Made by a program: the position numbers and the translations under genes. Positions 5,059-45,496 of a stretch of 64,000 nucleotides of DNA are shown here, one piece after another (position 1 is the stretch's first letter; each line of letters opens with the position of its first letter). The notes under the pieces were generated by a model that worked only from the letters and a program-made list of their open reading frames with translations, was not told the origin of the DNA and ran no database searches. The stretch is from Nitrospirota bacterium. GTDB taxonomy: Bacteria; Nitrospirota; Thermodesulfovibrionia; UBA6902. The DNA lies in contig JACRMS010000039.1 of the NCBI GenBank assembly GCA_016214845.1, positions 1 through 64,000 of the forward strand, read 5' to 3'.

Positions 5059-5062
5059 TTTC

Positions 5063-6085: not shown

Positions 6086-6107
6086 CTAAAAATTAATTGC
6101 TGTCATA

Positions 6108-6183: not shown

Positions 6184-6188
6184 ACGAA

Positions 6189-6218: not shown

Positions 6219-6277
6219 TTTTGTATATCTTCTTTCAGGAAAATTCCTAATCATAATTATTAATTTTTGGAGGAACA

Positions 6278-7534: not shown

Positions 7535-7547
7535 TCACAAAATATTT

Positions 7548-7625
7548 ATCCACAGATTTCGCAGATTGCACAGATAAAGAAAAAATTCTTTAAAAAAATC
7601 TGTGAAATCTGTGTCATCTGTGGAT
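7548..7625. repeat. CCGCAGATTT-type inverted repeat, copy 2
   Basis: Between leuC and leuD: atccacagatttcgcagat faces aatctgtgtcatctgtggat. Its place inside a probable two-gene transcript means the RNA would carry a long hairpin between the two subunit genes. Confidence 0.75.
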
Positions 7626-7644
7626 TACTTTTCAGGAGGATATC

Positions 7645-8142: not shown

Positions 8143-8258
8143 CCGCCTACATGGAATTCTTGCGGGAGCCCGAAAGAAAAAATTCTGTGGAATATCTAAT
8201 TAATGATGTTGTATAATTTTTCATTCCAAAATTTCAATATCATAAAGGGGAGGGCAAT

Positions 8259-8927
8259 ATGAAGGTTAAAACAGTAGTGCTGTCACTGGTTTTTCTGGTT
8301 TTATGTTCCACAAGTCTTTATGCAAAAACTCTTTCGTTAGGCGTAAAGGCCAGCACATTAGGGGTAGGGCCTGAAGTTGAGGTGTCGTTTCTGGATTTTT
8401 TAGGTATCAGAGGGGGATTTAATTACTGGAAATATAATTACGATGGAACAAAAGACGATATCGATTATAAATTTAAACTGAAATTGAACTCTGTTCCAGT
8501 CTTATTGGACATACATCCATTCAAGGGCAGTTTCAGACTTACCGGCGGCGTGCTTATCAACCGTAATAAGGTTGATGCAGATGCAGAGATTGCACCTGGC
8601 ACAACATATACAATCGGAGACCAGGATTTTGATGGATCGGAGATTGGAAAACTTAAAGGGAAAATTACCTTCAATGATACAGCGCCATATGCCGGGCTGG
8701 GATGGGATACTTCATTCGGAAGGGACAATGCCTGGGGGTTTATTATGGACTTAGGAGTGGTTTTCTCAGGGTCTCCCAAGGTTGATCTTTCCGCCAGCGG
8801 CGGAACAAAATCCAACGATCCCACATTTCTGAGCGAGTTGGCAAAAGAAGAAGATAACATGCAAGATGATCTTAACGCTTATAAATATTATCCTGTAATT
8901 GGGATTGGGGTTAATTACAGATTTTAA
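8259..8927 (+). CDS. Putative outer-membrane beta-barrel protein
   Basis: A 222-residue exported protein of unknown role. A signal peptide with a long hydrophobic core ends near TSLYA (residue 22). The rest alternates short polar and aromatic stretches, with paired Gly-rich turns and a C-terminal Phe (GVNYRF), as in small outer-membrane barrels. AAAGGGGAGGGCAAT precedes the start. It ends 11 bp before the FKBP gene and is probably co-transcribed with it, which suggests periplasmic folding help, but that is inference. Confidence 0.7.
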   Translation: MKVKTVVLSLVFLVLCSTSLYAKTLSLGVKASTLGVGPEVEVSFLDFLGIRGGFNYWKYNYDGTKDDIDYKFKLKLNSVPVLLDIHPFKGSFRLTGGVLINRNKVDADAEIAPGTTYTIGDQDFDGSEIGKLKGKITFNDTAPYAGLGWDTSFGRDNAWGFIMDLGVVFSGSPKVDLSASGGTKSNDPTFLSELAKEEDNMQDDLNAYKYYPVIGIGVNYRF

Positions 8928-8938
8928 CCGGAGGTTTT

Positions 8939-9667
8939 ATGAAAGTTTTAGCAGCAGTCTTAGGCATTATCCTTCTGCAAAACATAGCTTATGCGGAAGA
9001 GAACATCGAGTTAAAGACCCAGAGAGACAAGTTGAGTTACAGTATCGGCACAACCATGGGAAAAGATTTCAAAAGCCAGTCCATAGATGTTGATCCTGAT
9101 ATCCTCGCCAAAGGAATTAAGGACGCGTTCTCAGGTGACAAGTCTTTGATGACGGATGAGGAAATGCGCGATACTATTTCCACTTTCCGTAATGAGATGA
9201 TGGCCAAGCAGATGGCGCAAATGAAAGAGTCAGCCGAGAAGAACAAGAAGGAAGGGGACGCCTTTCTCGCGGAGAACAAGAAAAAAGAAGGCGTCGTAAC
9301 TCTGCCGAGCGGCTTACAGTATAAAGTCATTAAAGAAGGGACCGGGGCAAAACCGAAAGCAACGGATACAGTGAGCGTGCATTATAAAGGGACCTTTATA
9401 GACGGCGCTGAATTCGACAGTTCCATGAAGCGCGGCCAGCCTGCAACGTTCAAAGTCGGCGGTGTGATCCCCGGCTGGACCGAGGCGCTGCAGCTTATGA
9501 AAGCCGGTTCAAAGTGGCAGTTGTATGTGCCGTCCAATCTTGCTTATGGAGAGCGCGGCGCGGGACGTGAAATCGGACCCAACGCGACGCTTATTTTTGA
9601 AGTGGAACTGCTTTCCATTCAGGAAAATACAGGCAAACTGCCGGCGCCTGAAAAACCGGCAAAATAG
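8939..9667 (+). CDS. FKBP-type peptidyl-prolyl cis-trans isomerase, periplasmic (FkpA/Mip-like)
   Basis: Assists folding of exported proteins by prolyl isomerisation. A signal peptide (residues 1-19, ending IAYA) leads into an FKBP N-terminal domain (about 28-110), which is highly charged and helical and forms the dimer in FkpA/Mip. The catalytic FKBP domain follows (about 122-230), with motifs VSVHYKGTFIDGAEFDSS, VIPGWTEAL and AYGERGAG. The length of 242 residues matches FkpA. ACCGGAGGTTTT precedes the start. Likely forms an operon with the barrel protein just upstream. Confidence 0.93.
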   Translation: MKVLAAVLGIILLQNIAYAEENIELKTQRDKLSYSIGTTMGKDFKSQSIDVDPDILAKGIKDAFSGDKSLMTDEEMRDTISTFRNEMMAKQMAQMKESAEKNKKEGDAFLAENKKKEGVVTLPSGLQYKVIKEGTGAKPKATDTVSVHYKGTFIDGAEFDSSMKRGQPATFKVGGVIPGWTEALQLMKAGSKWQLYVPSNLAYGERGAGREIGPNATLIFEVELLSIQENTGKLPAPEKPAK

Positions 9668-9706
9668 TTGAGCCTCTTGCAAATGTTTAGAGGAAATCAC
9701 GTTTGC

Positions 9707-9788
9707 CGTCATACCCGCAAAGGCGGGTATCCAGAAGTCTTTGGTTTATAATATACTGGATTCCCGATAAAGACCTCGGGGATGACGA
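9707..9788. repeat. GTCATTCCCGC-type dispersed palindrome, copy 2
   Basis: cgtcatacccgcaaaggcggg and the later ggattcccg...gggatgacga form two linked palindromes. An outer pair (agcctcttgcaaatg at about 9671 and ttttgcaggagcct at about 9797) encloses them. The whole element fills the gap between the convergent FKBP and alr genes. Confidence 0.6.
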
Positions 9789-9820
9789 ATAAAGACTTTT
9801 GCAGGAGCCTCAGTTAATAT

Positions 9821-10900
9821 TTATTTGTACACCCTTTCAACCCGCTGGCCGATAGATGTGAGGACTTCATAGGGAATGGTGCCGATCTTGTCCGCGATGT
9901 CAGCGGCGGTAATTTTCTCTTTCCCCTGATTTCCGATTAAAACTACTTCTGAATCCAGGCCTGCGTCCGGTATGTCCGTAACATCAACCATGATCGTGTC
10001 CATGCAGACCCTTCCGGCAATAGGCGCGCGCTTTCCATTGATAAGCACCTCTCCCTGGTTGGAGAGTTTCCTGTTGTATCCGTCAGCATAGCCGACAGGA
10101 ATTGTTGCGATGGTGCTTTTCCTCTTTGTGATGAAGGTCCTGCCGTAGCTTATCGGAATGCCGGCCGGGACTTTTTTAAGGAGAAGGATCTTACTTTTCA
10201 GGCTTAACACCGGCTTGAGATCATCAGACCCGTAGCCGTAAAGCATAATTCCGGGCCTTACCATATTGAGGTGGGCGTTTTTCATGCTTAGTGTAGCGGC
10301 GCTGTTGGCAATGTGAAGATATTTAAAAGTGATCTTGTTCCGTGACCATTCATTTTTTATCGCAAGGAACCTCTTCAACTGCAGACCGGCAAACTCTTTA
10401 TCACAGAGGTCCGCCTCGGAGAAATGGCTCATGAGCCCTTCGAGTTCAATGTTTTTCAGGCGCGCTGCCTTGGGGATGTCCGTTAAGGCCCTGTCGATAG
10501 TAAACCCCACACGCCCCATGCCGGTGTCTACCTTGATATGCACCGCGATCCTGCGCTTGCGCCTCACAGCCTCTTTAGAAAATTTCTTAGCGGTGTTTAA
10601 ATCGAGGATTAAGGGGGTGAGATTAAATCTGAAGCATTCGTCAATGTGGTCCCTGTCAAAAAAAACCAGTATGGGGGCCGTTATCCCGGCCTCCCTGAGC
10701 GCAATGGCTTCGGCGGTAAACGCTGTTCCGAGATAAGTGATGCCTTGTTTTATGAGGTACTTTGAAATCTCTGCTGCGCCGTGTCCGTAGGCGTTGGCCT
10801 TCACAACGGCGAGAATATTTTTATTGCCTGTTTTCTTTTTGGCGACCCTGAGGTTGTGCGAGAGGGCTTTAAGATCGATTTCTGCGAAGGCTCTCAGCAT
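9821..10900 (-). CDS. alr: Alanine racemase
   Basis: PLP enzyme that makes D-alanine for peptidoglycan. Lys34 in AVVKANAYGHG binds PLP; the C-terminal domain has PISYGRTF with the catalytic Tyr, and the active-site closing motif GRVCMDTIMVDVTD. Length of 359 residues is normal. The tatA gene lies only 6 bp upstream on the same strand, so alr is probably read together with tatA and mobA, although the functions are unrelated. Confidence 0.96.
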   Translation of the reverse strand: MLRAFAEIDLKALSHNLRVAKKKTGNKNILAVVKANAYGHGAAEISKYLIKQGITYLGTAFTAEAIALREAGITAPILVFFDRDHIDECFRFNLTPLILDLNTAKKFSKEAVRRKRRIAVHIKVDTGMGRVGFTIDRALTDIPKAARLKNIELEGLMSHFSEADLCDKEFAGLQLKRFLAIKNEWSRNKITFKYLHIANSAATLSMKNAHLNMVRPGIMLYGYGSDDLKPVLSLKSKILLLKKVPAGIPISYGRTFITKRKSTIATIPVGYADGYNRKLSNQGEVLINGKRAPIAGRVCMDTIMVDVTDIPDAGLDSEVVLIGNQGKEKITAADIADKIGTIPYEVLTSIGQRVERVYK

Positions 10901-10906
10901 TAAGAT

Positions 10907-11113
10907 TTAAGACTTGCTTTCCTTGCCCGACTCATTGCCTTCCGTTTTATTTTTTGGTGTAACGTCGATCTCATCCGGCCCGGAAGACGCCTTCTTGAAA
11001 TTCTTTATCGCCTCTCCTATGCCCTTGCCGATCTGAGGCAGTCTCGACGCCCCGAAAAGGATCACAACGATGACCAGAATTATTATCAGCTCTGATGTCC
11101 CAAGTCCAAACAT
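10907..11113 (-). CDS. tatA: Twin-arginine translocase subunit TatA/TatE
   Basis: A 68-residue subunit of the Tat system, which exports folded proteins. One N-terminal membrane helix (about 7-21) is followed by the hinge [20 protein letters not shown], an amphipathic helix and a charged tail, the standard TatA layout. Its start lies inside the last 28 bp of mobA, with GAGGAGG as ribosome site, so the two are translationally linked. Tat exports many cofactor enzymes, including molybdoenzymes, which makes the mobA link sensible. TatB or TatC is not in the window. Confidence 0.92.
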
Positions 11114-11823
11114 TTCTTCCTCCTCATTACGCTATTTTTAAATTTCAACCTGTCTTGAGGTTGCAGATAAAGCTCGACATCTTCGGGAGTGTTAAGGTTA
11201 ATGAACGACTTCGCCTCCGGGTCGATGCCCTTTATCTCTTCGGTTGTAATATATTTTACTCTTTTACTGCGATTAAGTAAAAAATCTTTTATCCCCTTCT
11301 TCCCTGAAAGTATAAACTGCTCCAAAGTGGACAAGGCTTTTTTTGAATAAAAGGCAAAGAGAGGCTCAGCCCGGTGGTTGACAACCGGGACCACAACATC
11401 ATAAATGTCGGCTTCTTGCGCAGGGTCGAAATTCCCTCTCTCCTCGCCGCTCATCATAGAGAGACATGCCGGATTATATCTTTCATCCGCCATAAACCTG
11501 ATCAGGGCCGGATTTATGAAGGGCATGTCGCACGCGGAAACAAAAACCCACTGGCTGGATGAATTCAGAAGCGCGGTAAAGATTCCCGTCATCGGGCCTC
11601 TCACGTCATAAACGTCGCCAAACAGCGGCACTCCGAGATATGAATAAAGCTCCGGCTGGTTGGTGATGATGTAGGTTTCCCGGAAAAGCCGCTTCATGAT
11701 CTTGAGATTCCTCTCGACGGTCTTCTTCCCCTCAACCTCGATGAATGCCTTCAGCACAGGCATGCGTTTGTTCTCTCCGCCTGCGAGGATTACGCCCGTG
11801 CAATTATGTATAAGATTATTCAT
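11086..11823 (-). CDS. mobA: Molybdenum cofactor guanylyltransferase
   Basis: Adds GMP to molybdopterin to give the bis-MGD cofactor. The N-terminal nucleotide-binding loop reads [13 protein letters not shown] (family form GGxSxRMG), and [10 protein letters not shown] matches the metal-binding ACDMP of MobA. About 245 residues. I start at ATG 11823 (MNNLIHN); eight more codons are open upstream but fall in a dispersed palindrome. No strong ribosome site is seen. It overlaps tatA at its 3' end. Confidence 0.85.
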
Positions 11824-11830
11824 TTTGTCT

Positions 11831-11900
11831 GTCATTCCGGCAGTCATTAAGCCGGGATCCAGTTTGTATTTCCTGAATTCCCGCCTTCGCGGGAATGACG
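11831..11900. repeat. GTCATTCCCGC-type dispersed palindrome, copy 3
   Basis: gtcattccggc at the left and ttcgcgggaatgacg at the right are the outer arms, with ttcccgccttcgcgggaa as an inner hairpin. It fills the hisS-mobA gap and touches the mobA start region. Confidence 0.6.
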
Positions 11901-11902
11901 TT

Positions 11903-13153
11903 TTAGCCTTTAATTATTTTCACTAATTCCTGAACTTCAAGGACCGCTTTTGTCTCAGTCCCGCTGACCATGTCTTTGACCACGACCTCGCCTTTTTTCA
12001 ATTCGTCTTCGCCGAGGACAATGACATTTTTTGCGCCGAGGCGGTTTGCCTTGCGCATCTGGCTCTTAAGAGATGACGGTTCATAATTAACCTCGGCCCA
12101 CATCCCTGATGAGCGTAATTGTTCGGCCAGCAGCAGGCCCTTTTCAGGTGCTTCCTGTCCAAGCGGACAAATAAGAACGTCGGGAGTTTCAGCCTTGCTT
12201 ATGGACCCCTTTATCAGAGGGATGATCCTTTCCATACCAATGGCGAAACCGATGCCGGGGGTCGGCGGCCCGCCGAACTCGTCTACAAGTCCGTCGTATC
12301 TCCCGCCTGCCGCAACTGCCTTCTGGCTTCCAAGAGATTCGCTTGTCACTTCAAAGGCTGTCTTTGTGTAATAGTCGAGACCTCTGACGAGATTAGGGTT
12401 GATGGAATGCCTGACGTTGAGTGTTTCGAGGTTGCGCTTCAAATTGTCAAAATGCTGTTTGCAATCATCGCAGAGATGATCAAGCACGGCCGGAGCGCCC
12501 TGTCTGGATTCGATACAGCCCGGGACCTTGCAGTCCAGTATTCTCAAGGGGTTCAGATCAAACCGCCTTTGACAATCGCCGCAGAAACTGTTCAATCTGT
12601 CCCGAAGGAAATTTTTCAGGGCATCCCTGTATGCGGGACGGCAGTTTTTACATCCGATCGAGGTTATCTCAAAATTGACCCCCTCAAGGCCTATGCTGTT
12701 TAATATCTTTGAAAGCATGGAGATTATCTCAGCGTCGAGTTTCGGGTCTTCAATGCCCAGGGCCTCCGCGCCTATCTGGTAAAACTGCCTGTACCTGTAC
12801 GCCTGCGGCCTTTCATACCGGAACATCGGGCCCATGTAATAAAATTTTTGCGGCGCTGGATTGTTGTATAAGTGGTGCTCAACGTAAGCCCTTACAAAAG
12901 ACGCCGTGCCCTCCGGCCGCAGGGTCACGCTGCGGTCGCCCTTGTCGGTAAAGGTGTACATCTCTTTTTCCACAATATCGGAGGTCTCTCCGATGCTTCT
13001 GGTAAATATGTCGGTTGATTCGAGTACGGGGAGCCTGATTTCCTGGTAGCCGTAAGTCCTGAAAACGTCCCGAGAGATCTTCTCAATGTGCTGCCAGACG
13101 GAGATCTCAGGCGGCAGGATGTCCTGAAAGCCCTTAAGCGTTTTGTGTTTCAT
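11903..13153 (-). CDS. hisS: Histidyl-tRNA synthetase
   Basis: Class II aminoacyl-tRNA synthetase (416 residues). Motif 2 lies in YRYRQFYQIGAEALG, the histidine-binding motifs are GLDYYTKTAFEV and AAGGRYDGL, and motif 3 is GIGFAIGMERI. The insertion domain carries four Cys pairs (CKNC, CGDC, CKVPGC, CDDC), a pattern seen in many bacterial HisRS and able to bind zinc. A C-terminal anticodon-binding domain follows. It overlaps the upstream DivIVA-like gene by 20 bp. Confidence 0.97.
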   Translation of the reverse strand: MKHKTLKGFQDILPPEISVWQHIEKISRDVFRTYGYQEIRLPVLESTDIFTRSIGETSDIVEKEMYTFTDKGDRSVTLRPEGTASFVRAYVEHHLYNNPAPQKFYYMGPMFRYERPQAYRYRQFYQIGAEALGIEDPKLDAEIISMLSKILNSIGLEGVNFEITSIGCKNCRPAYRDALKNFLRDRLNSFCGDCQRRFDLNPLRILDCKVPGCIESRQGAPAVLDHLCDDCKQHFDNLKRNLETLNVRHSINPNLVRGLDYYTKTAFEVTSESLGSQKAVAAGGRYDGLVDEFGGPPTPGIGFAIGMERIIPLIKGSISKAETPDVLICPLGQEAPEKGLLLAEQLRSSGMWAEVNYEPSSLKSQMRKANRLGAKNVIVLGEDELKKGEVVVKDMVSGTETKAVLEVQELVKIIKG

Positions 13154-35623: not shown

Positions 35624-36406
35624 TCAAAAAGTCAGCCCGAGGTTTACCCCGTATATATCGCCTTTTGATTCAGGCTGGTACCACCCGTCGACTATCTCGG
35701 ATTTTGAAAATCTCAGGCCTTCATAAAATACCGCGGTCCTGAGCATCTTCCATTTAACCCCTGCTTCCGCAAAATAAGACTCTTTCTTGCCGGGCTCAAG
35801 CTTAACTGTCCCGCTGCCGAGCACGTTCAGGTCCGCCTCGTTTTCATTATGCACCGGGAACTTTATTCCGCCCTCAACAAAGACTTTTCCGAGGCCGTAA
35901 AAAGCAATATCGCTGTGTATCCCGGCCTGAACATACACAGTGCTCCATTTCTCAAGATACCCTGTTGCCATAGACGTGCTCTTGATGTCCCTCTCCCAGT
36001 AGCGATAACCGGGGCCTGCAAAAGGTTCAATTGAAAATCTTTCGCTTAAGTTAAATTTATAACCTATATTCCCTTCTATTTTGACGCCTAAATAATCCAC
36101 ATCGGTTTGAACAGGAGTTCCATCCTGTGTCTGTCCGTCATAGTCAATTCTCCCTCCGAACAGTTCTCCCTTCATCTTCAAAGTCAATGAGTTAATATCC
36201 AACTTTGCCAGGCCGCCAACGCCAAAGACCGGGCCTGACTCTTTTAAAAGCTGAGTTCCGCTGTTATCAAATTCCTTCCAAACAAAACTTTCACCCTTCA
36301 AATAAACATCATATTCATTCTCCGCCGAGGCTGTTTGCGGGAGCAAAACGCTATAACACGTTGTTGCTAAAATCAGAAAAGCAATAATTGCGGCGGTCCG
36401 TTTCAT
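35624..36406 (-). CDS. Putative outer-membrane beta-barrel protein
   Basis: About 260 residues with a signal peptide ending near ASAEN. Many alternating strands with aromatic ends (for example GNIGYKFNLSERFSIEPF and YRYWERDI) and a final Phe (GVNLGLTF) suggest an OmpA/OmpW-like barrel. I start at ATG 36406 behind AGGAGAACC; 13 upstream codons are open. It is the last gene of a minus-strand run of exported proteins and follows the DUF4384 gene by 35 bp. Function unknown. Confidence 0.7.
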   Translation of the reverse strand: MKRTAAIIAFLILATTCYSVLLPQTASAENEYDVYLKGESFVWKEFDNSGTQLLKESGPVFGVGGLAKLDINSLTLKMKGELFGGRIDYDGQTQDGTPVQTDVDYLGVKIEGNIGYKFNLSERFSIEPFAGPGYRYWERDIKSTSMATGYLEKWSTVYVQAGIHSDIAFYGLGKVFVEGGIKFPVHNENEADLNVLGSGTVKLEPGKKESYFAEAGVKWKMLRTAVFYEGLRFSKSEIVDGWYQPESKGDIYGVNLGLTF

Positions 36407-36441
36407 GCACTGGTTCTCCTTTATAGAAGCTAAATAAATTT

Positions 36442-37296
36442 TCATTTCCTTACCTCATATCCGATCGTCTTCTCTGTCCATGAAGAAGGATCGATCTCGG
36501 AAAGCTCTTTCATCAGATCTGTGATCATGGGCTGCTGAATGTCCCCGGAGAGAAAATCAACTTTTTCCTTTGACGCTATTATTAAAACTGATTCCACCGA
36601 ACGGCTGAGTTTCTTCGGCGTGTTCACCCGGAACCTCAGGCCGATCAGCCTGTATGTGTCATCAGGGAAAATAAACTCCTGGCGCGCGGGAAGGACTTCC
36701 ACCTTAACGTGCTGGTTGGGGTAAAGCTTTGACACGGACCCGTCCTGCCCCACGCTGAAAATGTTTATATATGAATCTTCATTCGCGCTGACTCTCACCT
36801 GGACCTCGTCGTTGTCCTGAAATACCGGCGATTCCATGGCCGTCTTTTTGTCGGGCCTTAAAACCTTTGCCCTCATAATGGCGAGGTTCCCCTTCTTTTC
36901 CGTGTTGATGGGTTTGACATAGGCCTTGAGCTTGCAATAATAAGAGAGCTGATTGCCTACTATCCTCGGCACGTCCTCAATGACTTCTTCTTTCACGATC
37001 AGGCCCTTGGTTGCGGTCTTGACGAGGTCGCTGACAAAATCGCTGTTATAAAGAACGGTGGAGCCGTGGATCTCAACGCCCACTGCCTGTTCAAGCGCGT
37101 TCCTCCTTGCGTTGTTTCTCGCCATCGCCCTGCCCTGAGCGGGCGGAGTGTCCTCGCCGAGGATGGACATGCCCTCAGCGGTGACTTCTTTTAGATCATC
37201 CCTGGGATGAACTGTTTCATTCTGCGCCTGTGCGTAAGAAAAAGTTAAAACAAACATTAAAACAAAAGTTAAAGACGAGAGAATGTATTTCTTCAT
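36442..37296 (-). CDS. Exported DUF4384 protein with FlgT/LPP20-like N-terminal domain
   Basis: 284 residues. A signal peptide ends near SYAQA. Residues about 35-140 (GRAMARNNARRNALEQAVG, then VSDLVKTATKGLI) have the Ala/Arg-rich helix pattern shared by LPP20 and FlgT N-domains. The DUF4384 domain follows (DNDEVQVRVSANEDSYINIF, GQDGSVSKLYPNQ). DUF4384 is often found attached to caspase-like proteins; here a caspase gene lies 2.6 kb upstream on the same strand. Function unknown. Confidence 0.8.
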   Translation of the reverse strand: MKKYILSSLTFVLMFVLTFSYAQAQNETVHPRDDLKEVTAEGMSILGEDTPPAQGRAMARNNARRNALEQAVGVEIHGSTVLYNSDFVSDLVKTATKGLIVKEEVIEDVPRIVGNQLSYYCKLKAYVKPINTEKKGNLAIMRAKVLRPDKKTAMESPVFQDNDEVQVRVSANEDSYINIFSVGQDGSVSKLYPNQHVKVEVLPARQEFIFPDDTYRLIGLRFRVNTPKKLSRSVESVLIIASKEKVDFLSGDIQQPMITDLMKELSEIDPSSWTEKTIGYEVRK

Positions 37297-37342
37297 ATGT
37301 TCTCCTTGGCTGCGCTTTGGGAATATAAAATATTATGAAAGA

Positions 37343-37885
37343 TTATGACGTTTTTATTTTTGCAAGCCTTTTGTCTGCCCTGAACCTCTTTGCAAGATTT
37401 GTGATAGATTCCATATCAAGGGCCTTCATCTGCAGCAGCTCCTTTACATCAAGAAGGTCTCTTGGCCCACCTGCCTTAAGTTTCATAACTATGAGATATT
37501 CAGGAGATATAACAGATATCTTCACTCCTTTAAAATCAAGCATGACTGCGTTAAGAACAGCCTCTTCTTCCAGCTTTTTAGTTGCGATAATCATATCAAT
37601 AGGCACATCTTTTTTTCGCGCCTTTATCAGATAAGGGACAGGGTCTGCAATGCCGCCTTTACAAAGCTCTGTTGTAAAACCTTCTGCATTCAGGGCCCTG
37701 CAAAAAGCGGTTATCTTGTTTGTCGATTCAAGAGATACTAACAAATCTACATCTCTTGTCCCTCTCGGTAAGCCCCAGACAGAAACGGAAAGACCTCCGA
37801 TAAGGACGTATCCCTTGATAGTCCCGCCCCCGGTTAACCTGTTCATCGTTACAGCAATCTCTTTAAGACTTCCTGCTAATCCCAT
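37343..37885 (-). CDS. Nucleotidyltransferase, probable toxin of a toxin-antitoxin pair
   Basis: About 180 residues. The nucleotidyltransferase core is seen in YVLIGGLSVSVWGLPRGTRDVDLLVSL, with the two catalytic Asp in DVD; a third acidic position lies near VPIDMII. The C-terminal helices RDLLDVKELLQ match AbiEii/MenT-like or DUF6036-like proteins. I start at ATG 37885 (MGLAGSLKEI); more upstream codons are open but overlap the partner gene. The pair lies inside the exported-protein run and may be an insertion there. Confidence 0.75.
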   Translation of the reverse strand: MGLAGSLKEIAVTMNRLTGGGTIKGYVLIGGLSVSVWGLPRGTRDVDLLVSLESTNKITAFCRALNAEGFTTELCKGGIADPVPYLIKARKKDVPIDMIIATKKLEEEAVLNAVMLDFKGVKISVISPEYLIVMKLKAGGPRDLLDVKELLQMKALDMESITNLAKRFRADKRLAKIKTS

Positions 37886-38033
37886 GCAATCCTGCTTTCT
37901 CCGCGGATTTTTTAAGCTCACAACAAAGCTCAGAAAGTTCAGCAGCAATCTCAAGTTTTTTTGAAGGTGTAAGTTTTCCGGCTGCTTCCATATCTATTTT
38001 TTTACTCAACTGCATTACCGTTGACTTTGCCAA
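37863..38033 (-). CDS. Small partner (possible antitoxin) of the nucleotidyltransferase
   Basis: About 56 residues, charged and helical (KKIDMEAAGKLTPSKKLEIA), with two adjacent Cys (LCCEL). It starts at TTG 38033, five bases after GGAGG, and overlaps the nucleotidyltransferase gene by 23 bp. Gene order and size fit an antitoxin upstream of its toxin; this is inferred from position only. Confidence 0.6.
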   Translation of the reverse strand: MAKSTVMQLSKKIDMEAAGKLTPSKKLEIAAELSELCCELKKSAEKAGLHGISRKS

Positions 38034-38100
38034 TTTAACCTCCAGAAAATGCAAATATACATGCAGATATTTTACAACAAAACAGATTCAACAAAATATT

Positions 38101-39231
38101 TCACCTCCTGATCCTGCTCTTCATATCCTCCATCATGTCCTGAAGGTCTTCCTCCACTGACTTAAGAAGCGCGTCGTAATCATACGGCCTTTTCGGCGGC
38201 AGGACCTTTTCTTCAGCTTTCTTTGTCGGCTCTTTGTCAGGGCTTGCCTTTTCGCCCTCGTCTTTCTTTTCTTCGGTTACTGCTTTTTGTTCCTTCTCTG
38301 GAAGCGCCTTCTTTTCTTCTTCAACGGGTCCAGTTTTTTCTTCTTTTGCAGGCTCTGCCTTTTGCATTTCAGAAGGGACTGTCTTTTGTTCCTCTATTTT
38401 TTTGTCTGAAGGTATACGCAAGGGGGGACTGAGAGGGGTCTCCTGCTGAATTGTTGAGGAAACAGCGGCAGCTCCGCTCTTGTCCTCAGTCAAAGGCCGT
38501 GTGCCGTAGGCGAGCATGATCCCCTGCCTGTCAAGCCACTTTTTAAGAACAGATGCTTTGATGGCAAAGTTAACGCCTGTTATCGGCAGATCACCTGCGC
38601 CCAGGCGCGCAATGTTTGTGTTTATCGCAATCATGTATCCTCTCTTGTCAATCAGCGGGCCGCCTGAGTTGCCCCTGTTGACGCTCGCATCGGTTTGAAA
38701 CACATCCTTGCCATCTACATTGTTCTGATTTGCGATCTCCCCGCTGATCCTTCCGTACGTAAGCGTCCAGAGTCCGCCCTGTTCGGGATGACCGATTGCA
38801 ACAGCTTCTTCTCCAATCTTGATCTCCTCAGGGTCTGCAAGCTCGATCGTTCCAGCATCCTTTGGCGGAGATTCGATTTTCAACACTGCAAGATCAAGGT
38901 CAGTATCATACGCGATAATTTTTGCCTTATGCCTGTCGACAAGGTCTTTCCTGAAATTGCCTGTCACCTTATCAGGCTTCAGATACACAAAGATATCCGG
39001 AAACGGTTTTGCTTTTGCCTTATCAATTACCACATGGGCATTGGTAGCTATGATGCCGGGGCTTAATACAATAGAACCGGCCCCTACCATGCTGGCGCTT
39101 TCATCACCTCGTGAAATGATCAATACAACGGACTTTGAAGTCTTCTTATACACCTCAACCGCGGGGAATTCGGCAAACGACACGCCCGTCAGGATGATTA
39201 ATGATGTTAGAGCTATAAATATCTTTTTCAT
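38101..39231 (-). CDS. Exported trypsin-like serine protease (HtrA/S1C type, no PDZ)
   Basis: 376 residues with a signal peptide ending VSFA (residue 20). The protease domain (about 25-235) has the full triad: His66 in ATNAHVV, Asp113 in DLDLAVL and Ser189 in RGNSGGPL. Instead of PDZ domains the C-terminal third is a long Glu/Lys/Pro-rich low-complexity stretch (about 250-345, with many EEK and PEKE blocks) and a short helix (LLKSVEEDLQDMMEDM). It lies between LPP20-like and DUF4384 genes and could be activated or anchored by its neighbours; that is inference. Confidence 0.88.
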   Translation of the reverse strand: MKKIFIALTSLIILTGVSFAEFPAVEVYKKTSKSVVLIISRGDESASMVGAGSIVLSPGIIATNAHVVIDKAKAKPFPDIFVYLKPDKVTGNFRKDLVDRHKAKIIAYDTDLDLAVLKIESPPKDAGTIELADPEEIKIGEEAVAIGHPEQGGLWTLTYGRISGEIANQNNVDGKDVFQTDASVNRGNSGGPLIDKRGYMIAINTNIARLGAGDLPITGVNFAIKASVLKKWLDRQGIMLAYGTRPLTEDKSGAAAVSSTIQQETPLSPPLRIPSDKKIEEQKTVPSEMQKAEPAKEEKTGPVEEEKKALPEKEQKAVTEEKKDEGEKASPDKEPTKKAEEKVLPPKRPYDYDALLKSVEEDLQDMMEDMKSRIRR

Positions 39232-39245
39232 TATTACCCCCTTTT

Positions 39246-39318
39246 AGAAGTTAAGAAATTGAGAAGCTAAGAAGTTGGCTTTTTTTCATCTTCTTAACTT
39301 CTCATCTTCACATCTTCT
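39246..39318. repeat. Word-type inverted repeat (agttaagaaattgagaag / cttcttaacttctc)
   Basis: gttaagaaattgagaagcta faces tcttcttaacttctcatctt. It lies between the protease and LPP20-like genes and overlaps the 3' end of the latter. Confidence 0.55.
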
Positions 39319-39904
39319 CTCTTTGCTTCTCCTCTTCCAGAAATTTTATTATCTCTTCGGCTGTGCGGCTTATATCTTCAGGATTGCCCCTGCCTGCCTG
39401 GTCAGGACGTGTCAGTTTTTTCTCAAGGGAGTTTTTGTCAAACTTCCGGGGCATGCAGCCCAGCGCGTAAGTTATGTCCCTTTTGCCTGCCTGGCCCTCC
39501 GCGTCAAACCAGTATTCAATTATCTTTGAGTTCTCAACAACGGCAGATGTCGCCCATGATGAGACCTCGCTTACGGTCGCTTCATCAACGCGGCTTCCCT
39601 TTACAGTTGCCGTGTCGACCATTATTGTCCTGATGCTGATGTTGATCGTTCTTGCAAGCTCTTTCCTTGCGCCTTCAGCCGCGTATTTTTTCGCGTCTTC
39701 CCTGAAATAGGTCGGCTCGCTTGCCCCGACCGCGCAGATCATGCCTTCAATATTCGGCGTCCTGACCACCCAGTCAGGGGGAGGACCCGGAGGTCTGGTT
39801 TCCTGAGTCGTCTGGCAGCTTGATAAAAATGAAAGGACCAATATCAGCGTAGAGACGTCATTAATGGCGTCTCTACCTTTTTTGGTGGCAAAAGCTATTT
39901 TCAT
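39308..39904 (-). CDS. LPP20-like lipoprotein with a palindrome in its signal peptide
   Basis: 198 residues. The hydrophobic segment ends SFLSSC, a probable lipidation site near residue 30. The mature part holds an LPP20 domain (PDWVVRTPNIEGMICAVGAS, YAAEGARKELARTINI). The n-region residues GRDAINDVST are encoded by a 28-bp near-perfect palindrome (39849-39876). The start overlaps the caspase stop (ATGA), so the two proteins are made together. LPP20 proteins sit in the outer membrane; their role is unknown. Confidence 0.8.
   Translation of the reverse strand: MKIAFATKKGRDAINDVSTLILVLSFLSSCQTTQETRPPGPPPDWVVRTPNIEGMICAVGASEPTYFREDAKKYAAEGARKELARTINISIRTIMVDTATVKGSRVDEATVSEVSSWATSAVVENSKIIEYWFDAEGQAGKRDITYALGCMPRKFDKNSLEKKLTRPDQAGRGNPEDISRTAEEIIKFLEEEKQREKM
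39849..39876. repeat. Near-perfect 28-bp palindrome inside an LPP20 gene
   Basis: The arms gtagagacgtcatt and aatggcgtctctac match with one mismatch. The element is in frame with the lipoprotein gene and adds about nine residues to the n-region of its signal peptide. Confidence 0.8.
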
Positions 39905-42171
39905 TTCACTCTTGTAACATCCATCTTTCTGTGCCCGTCCTGCTCCGGCAGAAGTACAGGCGTCTGGTCCCTGTTCAACTCAATAGATGCGGTCCTGGAC
40001 ACATTCTCTTTTATGTAATCGTAAAGTTCAGCAAGCGAGACCTTGCCGTCTTTATCACTGTCCGCGTCCCCCCTCATTCCCTTCAGCAGATAATATGTAA
40101 ACAGGCCGTGCTTTACTTTGTCGTAATCCGAACTTATCTGGGTGCCGCTTGCCGCTGCAAGCACTGCCACTTTTCCTCCGGCAAGCACCGGGTTCTCAAC
40201 GGAGATGCTTATCGGCCTTGAACCTTCCCTTGCAACACTTCTCTCGCCTGCGCCGGAGAAACATGAATCAAGCATCACTATTATCTTTTCTGACGGAAGC
40301 TTGTTTAAGGCATCGTACATCCTCTTGAGAGGATACATCTTTGATTTATAATCAGGATGCCCATCATACGGAACTATATACGCCTCCTTGTTATTGTCAG
40401 GGTCGGGTGCGCCGTGACCCGCGTAGTAGATGAATATCTCGGAATTCTTGTTCACCCTTCTCGGGAGCCATTCCTCAAAATAACTTGTCAGGTCCCCAAG
40501 CGTGCCTTTCTCATTGGTGAGCACCTTTATGTTCTGCTTTGGCACGCCGCCTATATTTTCAATGTATTTTGCCACTGTCTGGGCATCCGACTCGGCGTAC
40601 TTTACCTGCGGGATCATGTCCTCACGGTAACGGCTTATTCCGATTATTACGGCGTAAGAGTTCTCCTTTTTATAACTGCTGAGCTTTGAGGGGACCATGT
40701 CCACGTCGATGAACCTGGAAAGCTCCTGGGTCGTCTCTTTAATCTCTGCCGGCCTCACAGCGACTGTAAACGACTTCAGCTCAACAGGGGCATAACCTCT
40801 TTCCTCGTCCAGCTCTACCGAAAACTGGGCGGTCTCATGCTTTATGCGTGTCGGGAGGGCGCACTTAAATGTGACTTTCTTTTTGCCGTTCGGCTCGATG
40901 CTGCCGGCGATATTTTTATTCCCGAGACAGGAAGTCAAAGTATTATTGCCGGACAATAACACTTCAACGCCCTGGGCGGCGCCTTTGCCTTTGTTTTCAA
41001 TATTCACATTGACCGAAATTATTTCTCCGCCCTCAAGTATCCCGTTCCCGTTTGTGTCTTCCACCTTGACATCGTAAACAAGCTCCGGGGCCACGGTCAC
41101 GGGGGCCTTGATTTCGGGGCCCTTCACGGAAGGCCGCTGCGCGGGCCTGGCTTCAACTGCGTGCGAAGCTGCGAATCCCTTACCGCTGATGTCCCAGACA
41201 ATGATGTTCCTGTCTTCACTGCCGGAAACAAGAAATCTGCCGTCGCCGCTTAACACAACAGACGTGACAACGTCGGTATGGCCTGTAAGAGTTTTAAGTT
41301 TCTTACCTGTTTGTACATCCCAGACGGCAACTGTTTTATCATTGCTGCCTGAGAAGAGGACCTCACCGTCAGGGCTGAAGGCCACCGAGCCTGCAATATT
41401 TTTATCATCGGTCAGCGTCTTGATCTTCTCCCCGCTAAAAATGTTCCAAAGGGCAATCGTCTTGTCAGAGCTGCCGGAAGCAAGCGTTTGGCCGTCGGGA
41501 CTGAAGGCCAACGTGATAACAGGGTCCTTATGCCCTTTGAGAGTCCTGATATTTTCCCCGGTGGAAACATTCCAGAGAATAATGTTTTCATCGCTGCTGC
41601 CTGACGCCAGCATTTGACCGTCAGGGCTGAATGCTATGGAAAAAACTTCATCTGAATGCCCCTTGAGTGTCTTTAGCTTCTCACCTGATTCGGGACTCCA
41701 GAAGATTATCTTTTCGTCCGCGCTGCCTGAAGCAAGTGTTTGACCGTCAGGGCTGAATGCCAAAGACATGACATTGTCCCTGTGGCCTTTGAGGGTCTTG
41801 ACCTTCTCGCCGGAAGCAACGTTCCAGAGAATAATGGTCTTATCCTTGCTGCCTGACGCCAGCGTTTGCCCGTCGGGACTGAAGGAAAGGGATGTGACAT
41901 GATCTGAATGTCCCTTGAGGGTCTTGAGCTTCTCTCCTGCAGAGAGACCCCAGAGTATTACAATTTCGTCCTCGCCGCCTGACGCTAATGTTTGACCGTC
42001 CGGGCTTAATGCTACTGTCAAAACTTCTTCCGAATGCCCCTTAAGAGTCTTGGATTTTGTCTGCTCCCCGGCAGGAGCATCAGGCGCAGCTTCTTTATTA
42101 TCTCTTGCTGAATAGGCATAAGACGGTATGATCAATGTTAGAATCAGAATGAATATCATTGAGGCTTTCAT
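39901..42171 (-). CDS. Exported WD40-repeat caspase-family protein
   Basis: About 756 residues. A signal peptide (1-19, ending YAYS) is followed by seven WD40 blades (about 40-335; each has LASGS-like and ILWN-like ends). A CARDB-like region follows (about 360-460; DTNGNGILEGGEIISVNVNI), then a caspase/peptidase C14 domain (about 500-740) with catalytic His586 in YYAGHGAPD and Cys637 in MLDSCFSG. An acidic EF-hand-like loop (DADSDKDGKVSLAEL) lies near the end. The start at 42171 follows GGAGAACAAC. Caspase-like bacterial enzymes usually cut after basic residues. Export places this one outside the cytoplasm, unlike caspases in defence systems. Confidence 0.9.
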   Translation of the reverse strand: MKASMIFILILTLIIPSYAYSARDNKEAAPDAPAGEQTKSKTLKGHSEEVLTVALSPDGQTLASGGEDEIVILWGLSAGEKLKTLKGHSDHVTSLSFSPDGQTLASGSKDKTIILWNVASGEKVKTLKGHRDNVMSLAFSPDGQTLASGSADEKIIFWSPESGEKLKTLKGHSDEVFSIAFSPDGQMLASGSSDENIILWNVSTGENIRTLKGHKDPVITLAFSPDGQTLASGSSDKTIALWNIFSGEKIKTLTDDKNIAGSVAFSPDGEVLFSGSNDKTVAVWDVQTGKKLKTLTGHTDVVTSVVLSGDGRFLVSGSEDRNIIVWDISGKGFAASHAVEARPAQRPSVKGPEIKAPVTVAPELVYDVKVEDTNGNGILEGGEIISVNVNIENKGKGAAQGVEVLLSGNNTLTSCLGNKNIAGSIEPNGKKKVTFKCALPTRIKHETAQFSVELDEERGYAPVELKSFTVAVRPAEIKETTQELSRFIDVDMVPSKLSSYKKENSYAVIIGISRYREDMIPQVKYAESDAQTVAKYIENIGGVPKQNIKVLTNEKGTLGDLTSYFEEWLPRRVNKNSEIFIYYAGHGAPDPDNNKEAYIVPYDGHPDYKSKMYPLKRMYDALNKLPSEKIIVMLDSCFSGAGERSVAREGSRPISISVENPVLAGGKVAVLAAASGTQISSDYDKVKHGLFTYYLLKGMRGDADSDKDGKVSLAELYDYIKENVSRTASIELNRDQTPVLLPEQDGHRKMDVTRVK

Positions 42172-42230
42172 GTTGTTCTCCTTCAATCTATAAAAAAATT
42201 CTTTAATCAATATCACGCAGCCATTCGCTT

Positions 42231-42878
42231 TTATTCCCGCGCCTTCAACTTTACTAATTCCTTTTCCAACTCATCAAACGCCTCAGAAGCATGTGCTCTT
42301 GTATTTTCAATCAGCGCCCGCTCTTGATTATATGTAACGGCCTTCACGTATTCTTCTTTAGCCTTTGCAGCTGAATCCGCGTCTCCTTTTTTGGCCTTTT
42401 CTATCTCTTCTTTGGTTTTACTGAGGGCGTCGTTCATGTTCTTCTCAAGTTCATTTGCCGTCTCAGCCCTCGGCAGGACAGCCACCGCGTAAACAATGTC
42501 GCCTCTCTGTCCGCGGTCCGCAATACTCGATCCGCTCAGAAACTCATCCACAGTGACCTCGACAACCATTACAAATTCATTCCTGCAATCCTGCATGTCT
42601 TTAAAGAGTTTAGATTTCCCGGCTTCACACATTATATCGATAGTCTCTTCCTTGAGCCGTACCTTTATCTGCTTCGCAATTTCAAGCCTTGCAAGCACCT
42701 CGGCCTTTCTGTTGTCATTCATGGGATTGCCGCTTTTATTCACCTCCCCTATCCCGACAACATAATTATTTTTCGGGTACTCGCTGTAAATCCCGGCATA
42801 AGGTGATTCAGCGTAAACAGCGGTGCCTGTAAGGACCAGAAAAAACAAAAGACAACCTGCAAGAGTTTTTCTATCCAT
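42231..42878 (-). CDS. Exported LPP20-like protein
   Basis: About 215 residues with a signal peptide ending VYAES. An LPP20-like domain follows (YVVGIGEVNKSGNPMNDNRK, LARLEIAKQIKVRLKEE), then a long charged helix (about 150-213, rich in Lys and Glu) that may be a coiled coil. I start at ATG 42878 behind AAGGAGC; 25 upstream codons are open. No lipobox Cys is seen, so it is probably periplasmic. It lies 59 bp upstream of the caspase gene. Confidence 0.75.
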   Translation of the reverse strand: MDRKTLAGCLLFFLVLTGTAVYAESPYAGIYSEYPKNNYVVGIGEVNKSGNPMNDNRKAEVLARLEIAKQIKVRLKEETIDIMCEAGKSKLFKDMQDCRNEFVMVVEVTVDEFLSGSSIADRGQRGDIVYAVAVLPRAETANELEKNMNDALSKTKEEIEKAKKGDADSAAKAKEEYVKAVTYNQERALIENTRAHASEAFDELEKELVKLKARE

Positions 42879-42901
42879 AAAAAATTGCTCCTTAATCAAA
42901 A

Positions 42902-43046
42902 ACCACAGAGACGTTAAGAATAAGATTTCAGCCACAGATTCCGCAGATGGCACAGATAAAAAAATTCTAAAAATCTGCTTATATCTGTGTAATCTGTGGA
43001 CCGGTTCTGTTTTGTTCTACTCCGTGTCTCTGTGTCCTCTGTGGTT
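42902..43046. repeat. Nested inverted repeats: CCACAGAG outer pair around a CCGCAGATTT-type copy
   Basis: The outer arms are accacagagacg (42902-42913) and tctctgtgtcctctgtggtt (about 43026-43045). Inside lies a CCGCAGATTT-type pair (42932-43000). The same two-layer order occurs at 53535-53766. Confidence 0.7.
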
Positions 43047-43050
43047 AAAC

Positions 43051-43503
43051 TCACTCCAGTCTCATCGTAAAGATCTGCTCGGTCACTCCGCCTGATACGT
43101 CGCCGACGGTTATTTTAATTGTGTGCTTGCCGCTTGGAAGGTCGGCCTTTTCTATCCTTATGCCTTCCTTGGTTGTGTACGGCAGCACCCTGTTTGTAAG
43201 ATCAATAGTGACAAACTTGAGATACTCGACTTTGAGCTTTGAAAGATCCACATCCTTGCCCTCCACCGGAACAAAGAGTACCGCTAACTTAACAGGAGGT
43301 TTGTTCTTATCATTGAGCTCAGGCGAAACGACCTTGATGTCGGGGCCGTTATTTACAGGCCTGCCCACTTCATAAAGCCCGGCAGGGGCTTCCCTGAGCG
43401 AACCTTCTTCCTTTGTAACAAGCATCAATGTATCCGGTCCGGCAAAGGCATTACTGAGCATAAACAGACTTATCAGTATTGGTATAAACAGAACTTTCTT
43501 CAT
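43051..43503 (-). CDS. Exported protein of unknown function
   Basis: About 150 residues. A signal peptide ends near NAFAG; the mature part is all-beta in pattern, with SGKHTIKITVGDVSGG near the end, like an immunoglobulin-type or carbohydrate-binding fold. I start at ATG 43503, 8 bases after GGGAG; GTG 43512 is possible. It lies inside the LPP20/caspase gene run. No family recognised. Confidence 0.6.
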   Translation of the reverse strand: MKKVLFIPILISLFMLSNAFAGPDTLMLVTKEEGSLREAPAGLYEVGRPVNNGPDIKVVSPELNDKNKPPVKLAVLFVPVEGKDVDLSKLKVEYLKFVTIDLTNRVLPYTTKEGIRIEKADLPSGKHTIKITVGDVSGGVTEQIFTMRLE

Positions 43504-43526
43504 ATCGACCACTCCCTTCTTGAAAA

Positions 43527-43600
43527 AGAAGTTGTGAAATTTAGAAGGTGAGAAGTTGAGGTTTCCTGTCTTCTCAACCTCTCACCTTCCAATCTTCTTC
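43527..43600. repeat. Word-type inverted repeat (agaaggtgagaagttgagg / cctctcaccttcc)
   Basis: agaaggtgagaagttgaggt faces tctcaacctctcaccttcca across a short centre. It fills the gap between two genes of the exported-protein run. Confidence 0.65.
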
Positions 43601-43601
43601 C

Positions 43602-44192
43602 TTACTTCGCCTGCATTTTCGCTTCTTCTTTTTCGAGCTGCTCGTGCATCTTCTCGGCATTCTGCCTTATATAGTCTTTAACTTTTGAATCAAGCTCCTT
43701 TGATTTATCGAGACTGTCTTTAAACGCGTTGAGGTCGAGTCTTGCAAGCGCAAAAAACTCTCCTGTCGCAGGGTTCTGCCAGTGGTCAACGATCTCCACG
43801 CCGGAGAGGGTCATTGCGGTTACCGTCTTTATCGCCTGCTCCACATGCTGCTCTTCAGAGATTGCATTCGGGTCTCCCGCTGTTGTAGACGCAGCGTAAT
43901 CCTTCATTAAAGACGCTGTGTAAAACTGGAAAACCTTTGCCACTTCGTTTCTCGCGCGGTTATCGGCAGCAGCACGGAGAAGAGATGTGTTCTGCATTTG
44001 AGAGGCTGAGGCAACACCGTAAAAAACCTTGCCCATGTCTCCGCCGAATGCGCCGCTTCCTTTCATTACCCATTCAGGCGCTTTAAGGTCCTGCAGGGGA
44101 GTTGTTGACGTTACCTTCTCCTTACCCGCGCAGCCTGCAATTAAAATAAGTCCTGCCAATAAGATAAAGCCGGGAGCAATTAATCTTTTCAT
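43602..44192 (-). CDS. LPP20-like lipoprotein
   Basis: 196 residues. The signal peptide carries a clear lipobox (LIAGC, near Cys21). The LPP20 domain includes PEWVMKGSGAFGGDMGKVFY and RAAADNRARNEVAKVFQ, ending with the strand FFALARLDLNAFKDSL. A charged C-terminal helix follows. GGAGGAAAGCG precedes the start. A 446-bp gap upstream holds the likely promoter of this run. Confidence 0.8.
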   Translation of the reverse strand: MKRLIAPGFILLAGLILIAGCAGKEKVTSTTPLQDLKAPEWVMKGSGAFGGDMGKVFYGVASASQMQNTSLLRAAADNRARNEVAKVFQFYTASLMKDYAASTTAGDPNAISEEQHVEQAIKTVTAMTLSGVEIVDHWQNPATGEFFALARLDLNAFKDSLDKSKELDSKVKDYIRQNAEKMHEQLEKEEAKMQAK

Positions 44193-44638
44193 TTCGCTTT
44201 CCTCCTTGTTAAATCAGCTGACAGCTGACAGCTATCAGCTATTAGCTTTTAGTAATTTTATTTTGACGGACAAAACATATCATTTTTAAAATTCACAATC
44301 AGGAGACTGCTGTTTGAGGAAATAATCCGCTCCTGCCGCCGTTTGAAATATAGATCTCTCACCTCCTCTTATATTTATTTTAAGATTAGACGGCCCTCTA
44401 TAAAAACAGTATGGTTTCTTTTGTTGTTTTTGCAAAAAGCCCTTTTTGAATTAAAAAAATTTCCGGTATCCGAAAATATCTGTTTCTGACCTTGCCGTCA
44501 ATTATCCGGTTTCTAACGTCTTTCTAATCCGGCAAGTTGCTTAACTGCTGAAACTCGCGCGCCCTCAGATTCTTGAGAGTATTGTATCACCTTTCCCCTC
44601 AAGTTTCAGCCGCTATTTGTTTCCGCTTCAACTCTTAC
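44193..44638. other. 446-bp intergenic region, probable promoter region
   Basis: No gene is seen. Near 44213-44252 lie cagctgacagctgacagct words of the dispersed repeat type. A weak minus-strand promoter candidate has TTGCAA (44430-44435) and TACTGT (complement of 44406-44411) 18 bp apart. The motif taatccgg / ttatccgg occurs twice near 44500-44535. The region is A/T-rich compared with its neighbours. Confidence 0.4.
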
Positions 44639-45496
44639 TCACTTCCCCGTAGTTACAGCCACCCTGTCTTCAAAAAATTCCGCCGCTGAGATCTCATCCC
44701 CCCCGGACATTGTCTTCAATTTGACCCCTCTTGTCTTGATTCCTATCTCATGTGTCTTTGTCTTTATCAGATAAAAAGCGCCGCGCGCTGTAACATCAAT
44801 CTCTCCGAGCGGAGACGTGCTCGCGTACACGCTTATATTTTCCTCGCCTAACGGAGGCGTTATCTCGATCTGGTAACTGTCACTGCCGGAAGGTATTTCA
44901 TATTGCACGCCGCCGCTGAAATAGTTGTTTTCCCTGAAGGGGTTCGGCAGTAATTGCACCAGTCCGCCTTTGACGTCCCTATAATGGACCCGCGCGTAAA
45001 AAGGTTTGTTGCCCTTGAAGAGCACCTTTATCTTCTCACCGCTTTTATAATCATGCTTGTCTGTCCAGGCCTCAACCTGAAGGGGCGACGAAGGGTCTTC
45101 CGCAAACTGCCTGTCTCTGCCGATACTCATCATTGCCCTGATATCGGGAACGACCTCGGCCTTCATCAAAACTTTTAAGCATTTACCGGACCTCCCTTCC
45201 CTATGCCAGCCGAGTTCTTTTGAGCCTAAAACATTTACATCAGAGTGTGAGAAAGCACCTGTGATATCTTTTTTATAATCCAGATATTTTATTTTTAACC
45301 CATCACTGATATATGAAGCAGCCTGCTCCACTGCCTTCTTCTTCGCGTCCTCAAGCGCCTCCCTTTTGGTCAGCTTCGAGGACTTCTTCCTGCCCATGCA
45401 GGCATTACCTTCAACTTCAATGATGACGGACTGTGCGGCATACAGGTTGGAAAATAAAAAAAGGGTTATCAGTAATGGAACGACAATTCTCATCAT
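44639..45496 (-). CDS. Exported DUF4384 protein with LPP20/FlgT-like N-terminal domain
   Basis: 285 residues with a signal peptide ending NLYA. The N-terminal domain has KLTKREALEDAKKKAVEQAA, the same helix pattern as the second DUF4384 protein (36442-37296) and the LPP20 proteins. The DUF4384 part reads YKSGEKIKVLFKGNKPFYAR, then VHYRDVKGGLVQLLPNPF. Two such proteins bracket the caspase/protease run. First gene of the run; it may be transcribed separately from those after the 446-bp gap. ATG 45493 is an alternative start. Confidence 0.8.
   Translation of the reverse strand: MMRIVVPLLITLFLFSNLYAAQSVIIEVEGNACMGRKKSSKLTKREALEDAKKKAVEQAASYISDGLKIKYLDYKKDITGAFSHSDVNVLGSKELGWHREGRSGKCLKVLMKAEVVPDIRAMMSIGRDRQFAEDPSSPLQVEAWTDKHDYKSGEKIKVLFKGNKPFYARVHYRDVKGGLVQLLPNPFRENNYFSGGVQYEIPSGSDSYQIEITPPLGEENISVYASTSPLGEIDVTARGAFYLIKTKTHEIGIKTRGVKLKTMSGGDEISAAEFFEDRVAVTTGK

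Follow-up and report, generated by a model that had tools for sequence, protein, structure and literature searches.

What an exported caspase, an exported trypsin-like protease and a group of further exported proteins do together is the question raised by a locus in a 64,000-nucleotide stretch of a Nitrospirota genome (contig JACRMS010000039.1; here called the window). A first-pass annotation had described it as one unit of nine exported proteins, acting as an envelope protease system in stress sensing, surface remodelling or killing rather than in cytoplasmic defence. According to our analysis, it is at roughly even odds (probability of about 0.5) a 5'-truncated copy of a Nitrospirota operon encoding an extracytoplasmic multi-protease system for envelope stress or quality control. 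The genome comprises 3.45 Mb in 41 contigs, and the locus is found on contig C39, where ten minus-strand genes span positions 35,624 to 45,496 between glnA and a plus-strand glutamate synthase-type gene. The genes, strand and coordinates described earlier were confirmed, and nine of the ten products (g1 to g7, g9 and g10 in Table 1) start with hydrophobic, signal-like segments, with lipoboxes in g2 and g6; export was called from the sequence by a simple hydropathy scan of the N termini. The count of nine exported proteins on one strand holds, but a tenth gene, encoding a nucleotidyltransferase, had been overlooked. An Rfam search found no RNA.

The proposed operon emerges when neighbourhoods of up to 20 kb are compared by BLAST among related genomes. 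The order g2-g3-g4-g5-g6-g7-g9, which we take as the core, recurs in six further Nitrospirota loci over whatever part of it their contigs cover, at protein identities down to 50 to 60%, so the gene set is indeed conserved in related genomes; co-occurrence is likewise seen for g4 and an M48-type protease gene of the fuller operons, which are associated among 80 relatives (Fisher p = 2.5e-7, ignoring phylogeny). For the core, this order refutes the scarcely credible idea of a chance neighbourhood of unrelated exported genes, whose supporting evidence lies at the margins: in the sister genome G006, with about 87 to 99% identity among the proteins shared in this region, g1 and g10 stand without the core in the arrangement glnA-g1-g10-gltA, and the cytoplasmic nucleotidyltransferase gene is inserted in the window copy. 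The same two observations rule out that the nine proteins form one unit; the locus is a composite of a conserved core, separable neighbours and an insertion. Linkage of g2 and g7 was seen in 10 of 12 informative genomes, and in half of these no WD40-caspase gene lies between the two; G387 has g2-g4-g7, and G048, G051 and G302 have g2-g7. From this linkage, several times without the caspase, the caspase module looks like an addition to a g2-g7 set. G103, from another class, carries a two-open reading frame (ORF) regulator, an anti-sigma-like gene, the M48 gene, g2, g4, g6, g7, g9, g1 and a short caspase piece, while G047 carries the regulator, the anti-sigma-like gene, the M48 gene, g2 and g7 and no caspase.

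The fuller operons add two envelope-type parts, a metalloprotease of the M48-TPR type and an anti-sigma-like protein of the membrane. The M48-type protease is encoded upstream of g2 in G031, G034, G036, G007 and G021; it is exported and contains the motif HELAH, a downstream ELQAD and TPRs, a layout which is that of BepA (PMC7950410). It is present in all five other family members with g4, and a close full-length homologue was found in only one further genome among the 80 relatives. A PDB sequence search with the M48 alignment found nothing. In G031, G034 and G036, the M48 gene is preceded by a gene for a zf-HC2 protein with a membrane segment, and anti-sigma-like homologues were identified in these three genomes and in G047 and G103. 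The two-ORF regulator is found in G031, G036, G047 and G103, and in G036, G047 and G103 it is followed by the zf-HC2-type protein gene. On visual inspection, its first ORF is similar to sigma region 2, and a remote counterpart with a single ORF matches Sigma70_r2 with 17.7 bits, below the cut-off of 24. As far as sequence alone can tell, the regulator is likely to be a split sigma factor and the zf-HC2 protein its anti-sigma factor. The two ORFs overlap by 17 nt in all four genomes, with the first stop at the same place. A programmed +1 frameshift joining them was considered and rejected: three of the stops read TTTTAR, but that of G031 reads TATTAG, with no run of T and with the overlap kept, which makes slippage less likely and a split gene likelier. 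The regulator ORFs follow an LpxI-like gene, named from its sequence, in G036 and G031, a putative lipid A context that suits an envelope role. More distant trios of regulator, anti-sigma-like and M48-TPR genes occur in G071, G373, G150 and G084.

The window genome yielded no homologue of the anti-sigma-like protein or the two-ORF regulator and no full-length one of the M48 protease, and hence no linked pair of sigma factor and membrane anti-sigma factor as in a sigma-E-type system. What is left of the 5' part is a relic of the 3' end of the M48-TPR gene, which lies together with a terminator-like hairpin preceding it in the 446 bp between g1 and g2. G006 lacks the core yet keeps the final codons of g9 before g10, which is 88% identical to its window counterpart and stands beside g1; the operon of G034 is also located beside glnA. 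These two facts rule out an insertion of the core into an ancestral glnA-g1-g10-gltA site. Since relics are found in both the window and G006, the comparison indicates that their common ancestor had the operon at this site and that the two lineages lost different parts of it. The earlier interpretation thus stands as to an envelope protease system but not as to a single nine-gene unit, and it could not take in the regulator and metalloprotease genes, which are deleted here.

Table 1. Position and basis of the features of the window locus, followed by core loci and two-ORF regulators in relatives
Feature	Position	Strand	Description	Basis
g1	44639..45496	-	exported DUF4384 protein	DUF4384 76.9 bits, cut-off 27
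Hairpin	44459..44477	-	intrinsic-terminator-like, between g1 and g2	pattern scan only
M48-TPR gene relic	44298..44438	-	3' end, about 47 codons	tblastn, residues 519-568 of G007 M48 protein, E 1.3e-5
g2	43602..44192	-	LPP20 lipoprotein, lipobox at Cys21	Pfam LPP20 31.7 bits
g3	43051..43503	-	exported protein of about 150 aa, perhaps an Ig-like beta sandwich (low-confidence model)	no Pfam domain
g4	42231..42878	-	exported LPP20-type protein, start re-assigned to ATG 42878	LPP20 22.2 bits, below cut-off
g5	39901..42171	-	exported WD40 propeller-CARDB-caspase, His/Cys dyad intact	Pfam domains
g6	39308..39904	-	LPP20 lipoprotein, overlaps g5 by 4 nt	LPP20 27.5 bits
g7	38101..39231	-	exported HtrA-like trypsin-fold protease without PDZ	Trypsin_2 95.4 bits
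Small ORF	37863..38033	-	about 56 aa, before the nucleotidyltransferase gene	read from sequence
Nucleotidyltransferase	37343..37885	-	cytoplasmic, DUF6036/AbiEii-like, no signal peptide	DUF6036 37.7 bits, AbiEii 28.3 bits
g9	36442..37296	-	exported DUF4384 protein, homologue of g1	DUF4384 46.1 bits
g10	35624..36445	-	outer-membrane barrel-like protein, overlaps g9 by 4 nt	OMP_b-brl 30.0 bits, cut-off 28.7
Core locus G031 (JACQXG010000087.1)			g2-g3-g4-g5-g6-g7-g9	
Core locus G034 (JACRQA010000192.1)			core order, contig end after g7	
Core locus G036 (QZIL01000093.1)			core with FGE, nucleotidyltransferase/HEPN pair and second exported caspase between g6 and g7	
Core locus JAJRVB010000263.1			g5-g6-g7-g9	
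Core locus G007			g2-g5, then contig end	
Core locus G021			g2-g4-g5, g3 absent	
Two-ORF sigma-like regulator	L039:4452-5439	+		17-nt ORF overlap; first-ORF stops of the four loci TTTTAG, TTTTAG, TTTTAA, TATTAG
Two-ORF sigma-like regulator	L069:11084-12059	-		17-nt ORF overlap
Two-ORF sigma-like regulator	L074:10332-11349	-		17-nt ORF overlap
Two-ORF sigma-like regulator	L089:2-608	-		17-nt ORF overlap

Among the core proteins, g7 was correctly recognized as a trypsin-like protease with an intact triad, with His66, Asp113 and Ser189 invariant in 10 orthologues. It does not belong to the HtrA/DegP family proper, having no Pfam PDZ match and scoring 117.2 bits against the 416.2 bits of TIGR02037. 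Its C-terminal part (38101-38500) consists of a long linker rich in Pro, Glu and Lys and of a segment conserved in the 10 orthologues, with the family consensus PYxYDDLLKxVExELEDMMEEMRGKIRR.

The caspase domain of g5 matches Peptidase_C14 (PF00656) with 60.3 bits over a cut-off of 21.4, and its YYAGHG and DSCFSG motifs are intact and invariant across orthologues, in agreement with the WD40-caspase with a complete dyad described previously; that description had missed a CARDB domain (24.9 bits, cut-off 22.7) between the propeller, which comprises seven WD40 stretches, and the caspase. An Asp two residues ahead of the catalytic Cys is conserved in the orthologues. It is the only caspase that an alignment search found in the window genome; a PF00656 search of the same genome missed g5 despite about 60 bits in hmmscan, which is a limit of that search. 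The named relatives retrieved with the caspase alignment are mostly Nitrospirae or Nitrospira, and a PDB sequence search with it found nothing. In a survey of prokaryotic caspases, WD40 was the commonest extra domain, some proteins had possibly signal-like N-terminal helices, the density was high in Nitrospirae, and a surface or fratricidal role was proposed for caspases with such helices (PMC3501461). The protein encoded by g5 shares the His/Cys caspase domain, the WD40 repeats and the putative signal helix with these orthocaspases and bacterial metacaspases of Peptidase family C14, but its gene is part of a conserved operon that also encodes LPP20 proteins and, separately, a trypsin-like protease, joined in relatives by the M48 and anti-sigma-like genes.

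The surface or fratricidal proposal lends itself to a reading of the operon as a programmed killing system, in which the exported caspase would be an executioner set off by the trypsin-like protease and directed at the cell's own surface, at neighbours or at predators. Patchy distribution with operon loss suits it, the rarity of the operon being the main point in its favour, as do toxin-antitoxin-like insertions and extra caspases in some copies. We nevertheless deem it quite improbable: the operon includes no pore former, secretion apparatus or immunity-like gene, its HtrA-like, M48-TPR and LPP20 parts fit envelope maintenance, and, since several operons have g2-g7 and no caspase, the core role must be something other than caspase-driven killing.

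Three arrangements of caspase genes elsewhere were also recorded. A tandem array of five caspase-domain genes fills 11.5 kb (positions 1335-12863) of L051 (JAPLUO010000131.1, labelled WOR-3), one of them 51% identical to the caspase domain of g5. In many Nitrospira sp. genomes (L053-L066), a caspase with 32 to 35% identity to g5 lies beside an oppositely oriented trypsin-like gene, and at L028:5809-7917 a CHASE2-guanylate/adenylate cyclase gene directly follows an exported WD40-caspase gene and a g1 homologue.

Caspases and trypsins are common effectors of NTPase-dependent conflict systems (PMC7159879), with which the locus and its relatives share, besides these two domains, FGE-type and WD40 associations, and weak matches to PADLOC caspase and protease models were obtained for g5 and g7. 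A caspase/trypsin-type system directed against phages or serving conflicts in the cytoplasm is very unlikely all the same, as all core members have export-type N termini, the locus genes include no NTPase, EACC1, sensor or nucleotide-signal component, and g5 falls short of the EACC1-associated caspase model NF047832 (89.9 versus 140 bits). The membrane regulator of the relatives is a further difference from the NTPase-dependent systems. The preference for an extracytoplasmic protease system over cytoplasmic defence is thus borne out by the conserved core order, the N termini and the lack of a STAND, NACHT, vWA or EACC1 NTPase partner.

Both g2 and g6 exceed the Pfam LPP20 (PF02169) cut-off of 25.9 bits and have lipoboxes, and g4, although below it, joins g2 in profile comparison at 93%, with g6 joining g2 at 97%. 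An LPP20-like pattern had been ascribed to five members, of which these three stand; g1 and g9 do not, having no Pfam LPP20 match and hhalign values of 0.6 to 2% to the LPP20 members, and a distant relation of the DUF4384 pair to this group is at most possible. The identity of g2 to its operon relatives is 72 to 79%, g4 orthologues were found in operon relatives, and g3 is 51 to 61% identical to its orthologues in three operons and 80% in G007. The AlphaFold2 model of g3, with a mean predicted local distance difference test (pLDDT) of 51.5, gave weak matches to CopC, FN3 and Ig folds and no solid fold match, and a PDB sequence search with the g2 alignment found nothing. Ratios of nonsynonymous to synonymous substitution rates (dN/dS) against G007 are 0.08 for g2, 0.10 for g3 and 0.06 for g4, rough values as dS is above 1; they show that these genes were under purifying selection for most of the period after the split from G007 and are not proof that the truncated copy works. 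FlgP builds rings in the basal disk, and the dodecin and Lpp20 folds share the SHS2 architecture with FlgP and FlgT (PMC12222027); g2, g4 and g6 are in or near the same family of envelope proteins, but the locus has no flagellar genes, and an assembly here would be by analogy. In the signal-peptide region of g6, a palindromic repeat (39849-39876; 14-nt arms, 93% complementary) lengthens the N terminus compared with its relatives. Hairpin or repeat-like sequences are also present in the gaps g2/g3 (43536-43597), g6/g7 (39230-39308) and g3/g4 (about 43044).

The two DUF4384 proteins named in the first-pass annotation were confirmed, both being well above the family cut-off. They are homologous over most of their length (96% in hhalign of the two families), and g9 is 55 to 58% identical to its orthologues in the operons. 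Its structure model is of low confidence (pLDDT 53.2), Foldseek returned only weak Lpp20/dodecin matches, and a PDB sequence search with its alignment gave only two insignificant ones. Full-length g1 orthologues are found in 19 of the 80 relatives, i.e., in 20 of 81 genomes with the window genome included, and in 14 of these 20 an alignment search found a caspase as well (Fisher p = 0.0013, ignoring phylogeny). In 13 of these 14, the distance from g1 to the nearest caspase is no more than about 4 kb, where about 0.2 would be expected by chance, and in the fourteenth g1 sits at a contig end. CHAT proteases, from the same clan as caspases, adjoin g1 in two more genomes, and in G103 g1 lies inside the operon. 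By its neighbourhoods across the class, g1 appears to be a real partner of caspase-clan proteases in general, though outside the core operon in this genus. Known fusions point the same way: trypsin, caspase fold and DUF4384 are joined in pseudo-orthocaspases of Alphaproteobacteria with a QC dyad (PMC6426788), and DUF4384, WD40 and FGE are fused to cyanobacterial orthocaspases (PMC8283722). Whereas the alphaproteobacterial combination of the three domains is one protein with a changed dyad, here they are separate exported proteins and the dyad is intact.

As for the remaining neighbours, the nucleotidyltransferase gene and the small ORF before it, possibly an antitoxin-like partner, are an insertion between g7 and g9 and lie outside the core; in L040, L048 and L050, the nucleotidyltransferase gene is not between g7 and g9. 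The barrel protein reported for g10 was confirmed, its score slightly exceeding the cut-off. Its 4-nt overlap with g9 could be taken, together with the CARDB and WD40 binding domains of g5 and a transglycosylase-like gene after g9 in G031 and JAJRVB010000263.1, to mean that particular exported or outer-membrane proteins are matured by these proteases, for instance for adhesion or for assembly of the cell surface. This seems unlikely to us, given that no substrate gene is conserved with the core, g10 was not seen in other operons, the transglycosylase-like gene is in two only, and stress responses are where linkage to a sigma/anti-sigma pair is more commonly met.

Among stress sensing, surface remodelling and killing, we favour a stress response or quality control. 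In Escherichia coli, sigma-E and RseA together with DegP and BepA make up an envelope-stress regulon, which the complete operons would resemble in the way they work, in that they combine exported proteases of the HtrA and M48-TPR types with an anti-sigma factor in the membrane. They differ from it in being one operon with an apparently split regulator, a protease without PDZ, and a caspase and LPP20 proteins added; the window itself, having neither regulator nor M48 gene, is no member. In the proposed mechanism, the LPP20 lipoproteins g2 and g6 would form with soluble g4 a scaffold anchored in the outer membrane, on which g7 could dock through its conserved C-terminal segment, either cutting damaged or misfolded envelope proteins or activating the caspase. 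The latter would be a specific second protease, cleaving after basic residues as orthocaspases do, and its sensors or adaptors would be the DUF4384 proteins, namely g9 and, in copies that have it, g1. Envelope damage would turn on the complete operons through the sigma/anti-sigma pair, with the M48-TPR protease in a BepA-like role; with this dedicated switch lost from the window copy, the remaining core may be expressed from another promoter or be heading to loss. The periplasmic or outer-membrane site, the scaffold, the docking of g7, the protease cascade and the control by the regulator are all inferred.

Several observations weigh against this reading. The operon is rare, the M48 gene being found in 8 and g2 in 13 of 230 class genomes, a rarity not expected of housekeeping quality control and equally compatible with a role in conflict or in a particular niche. 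The sigma identity rests on the sub-threshold Sigma70_r2 similarity and on the position beside the zf-HC2 gene, g7 lacks the PDZ domain through which DegP-type proteases detect unfolded termini, and the window copy, without regulator and M48 gene, may be decaying. The scheme in full would be an extracytoplasmic cascade of M48, HtrA-like and WD40-caspase proteases under sigma/anti-sigma control, held on a scaffold of LPP20 proteins in the outer membrane, in which DUF4384 proteins serve the caspase as adaptors; complete copies would have a sigma factor that is genuinely split, and the window copy would have lost the control part. This scheme is put forward only tentatively.

No description of this operon was found in the open-licence literature, and in the papers found bacterial caspases are mainly discussed as agents of cell death or conflict. 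Copies whose 5' part has been deleted, such as the present one, can mislead unless they are set beside complete ones. The strong neighbourhood of DUF4384 proteins and caspases points to a testable role for this domain of unknown function, and an operon that links an exported caspase with an HtrA-like protease and LPP20 lipoproteins, and in relatives with an M48-TPR protease and a membrane regulator, would give the caspase a specific and testable extracytoplasmic job.

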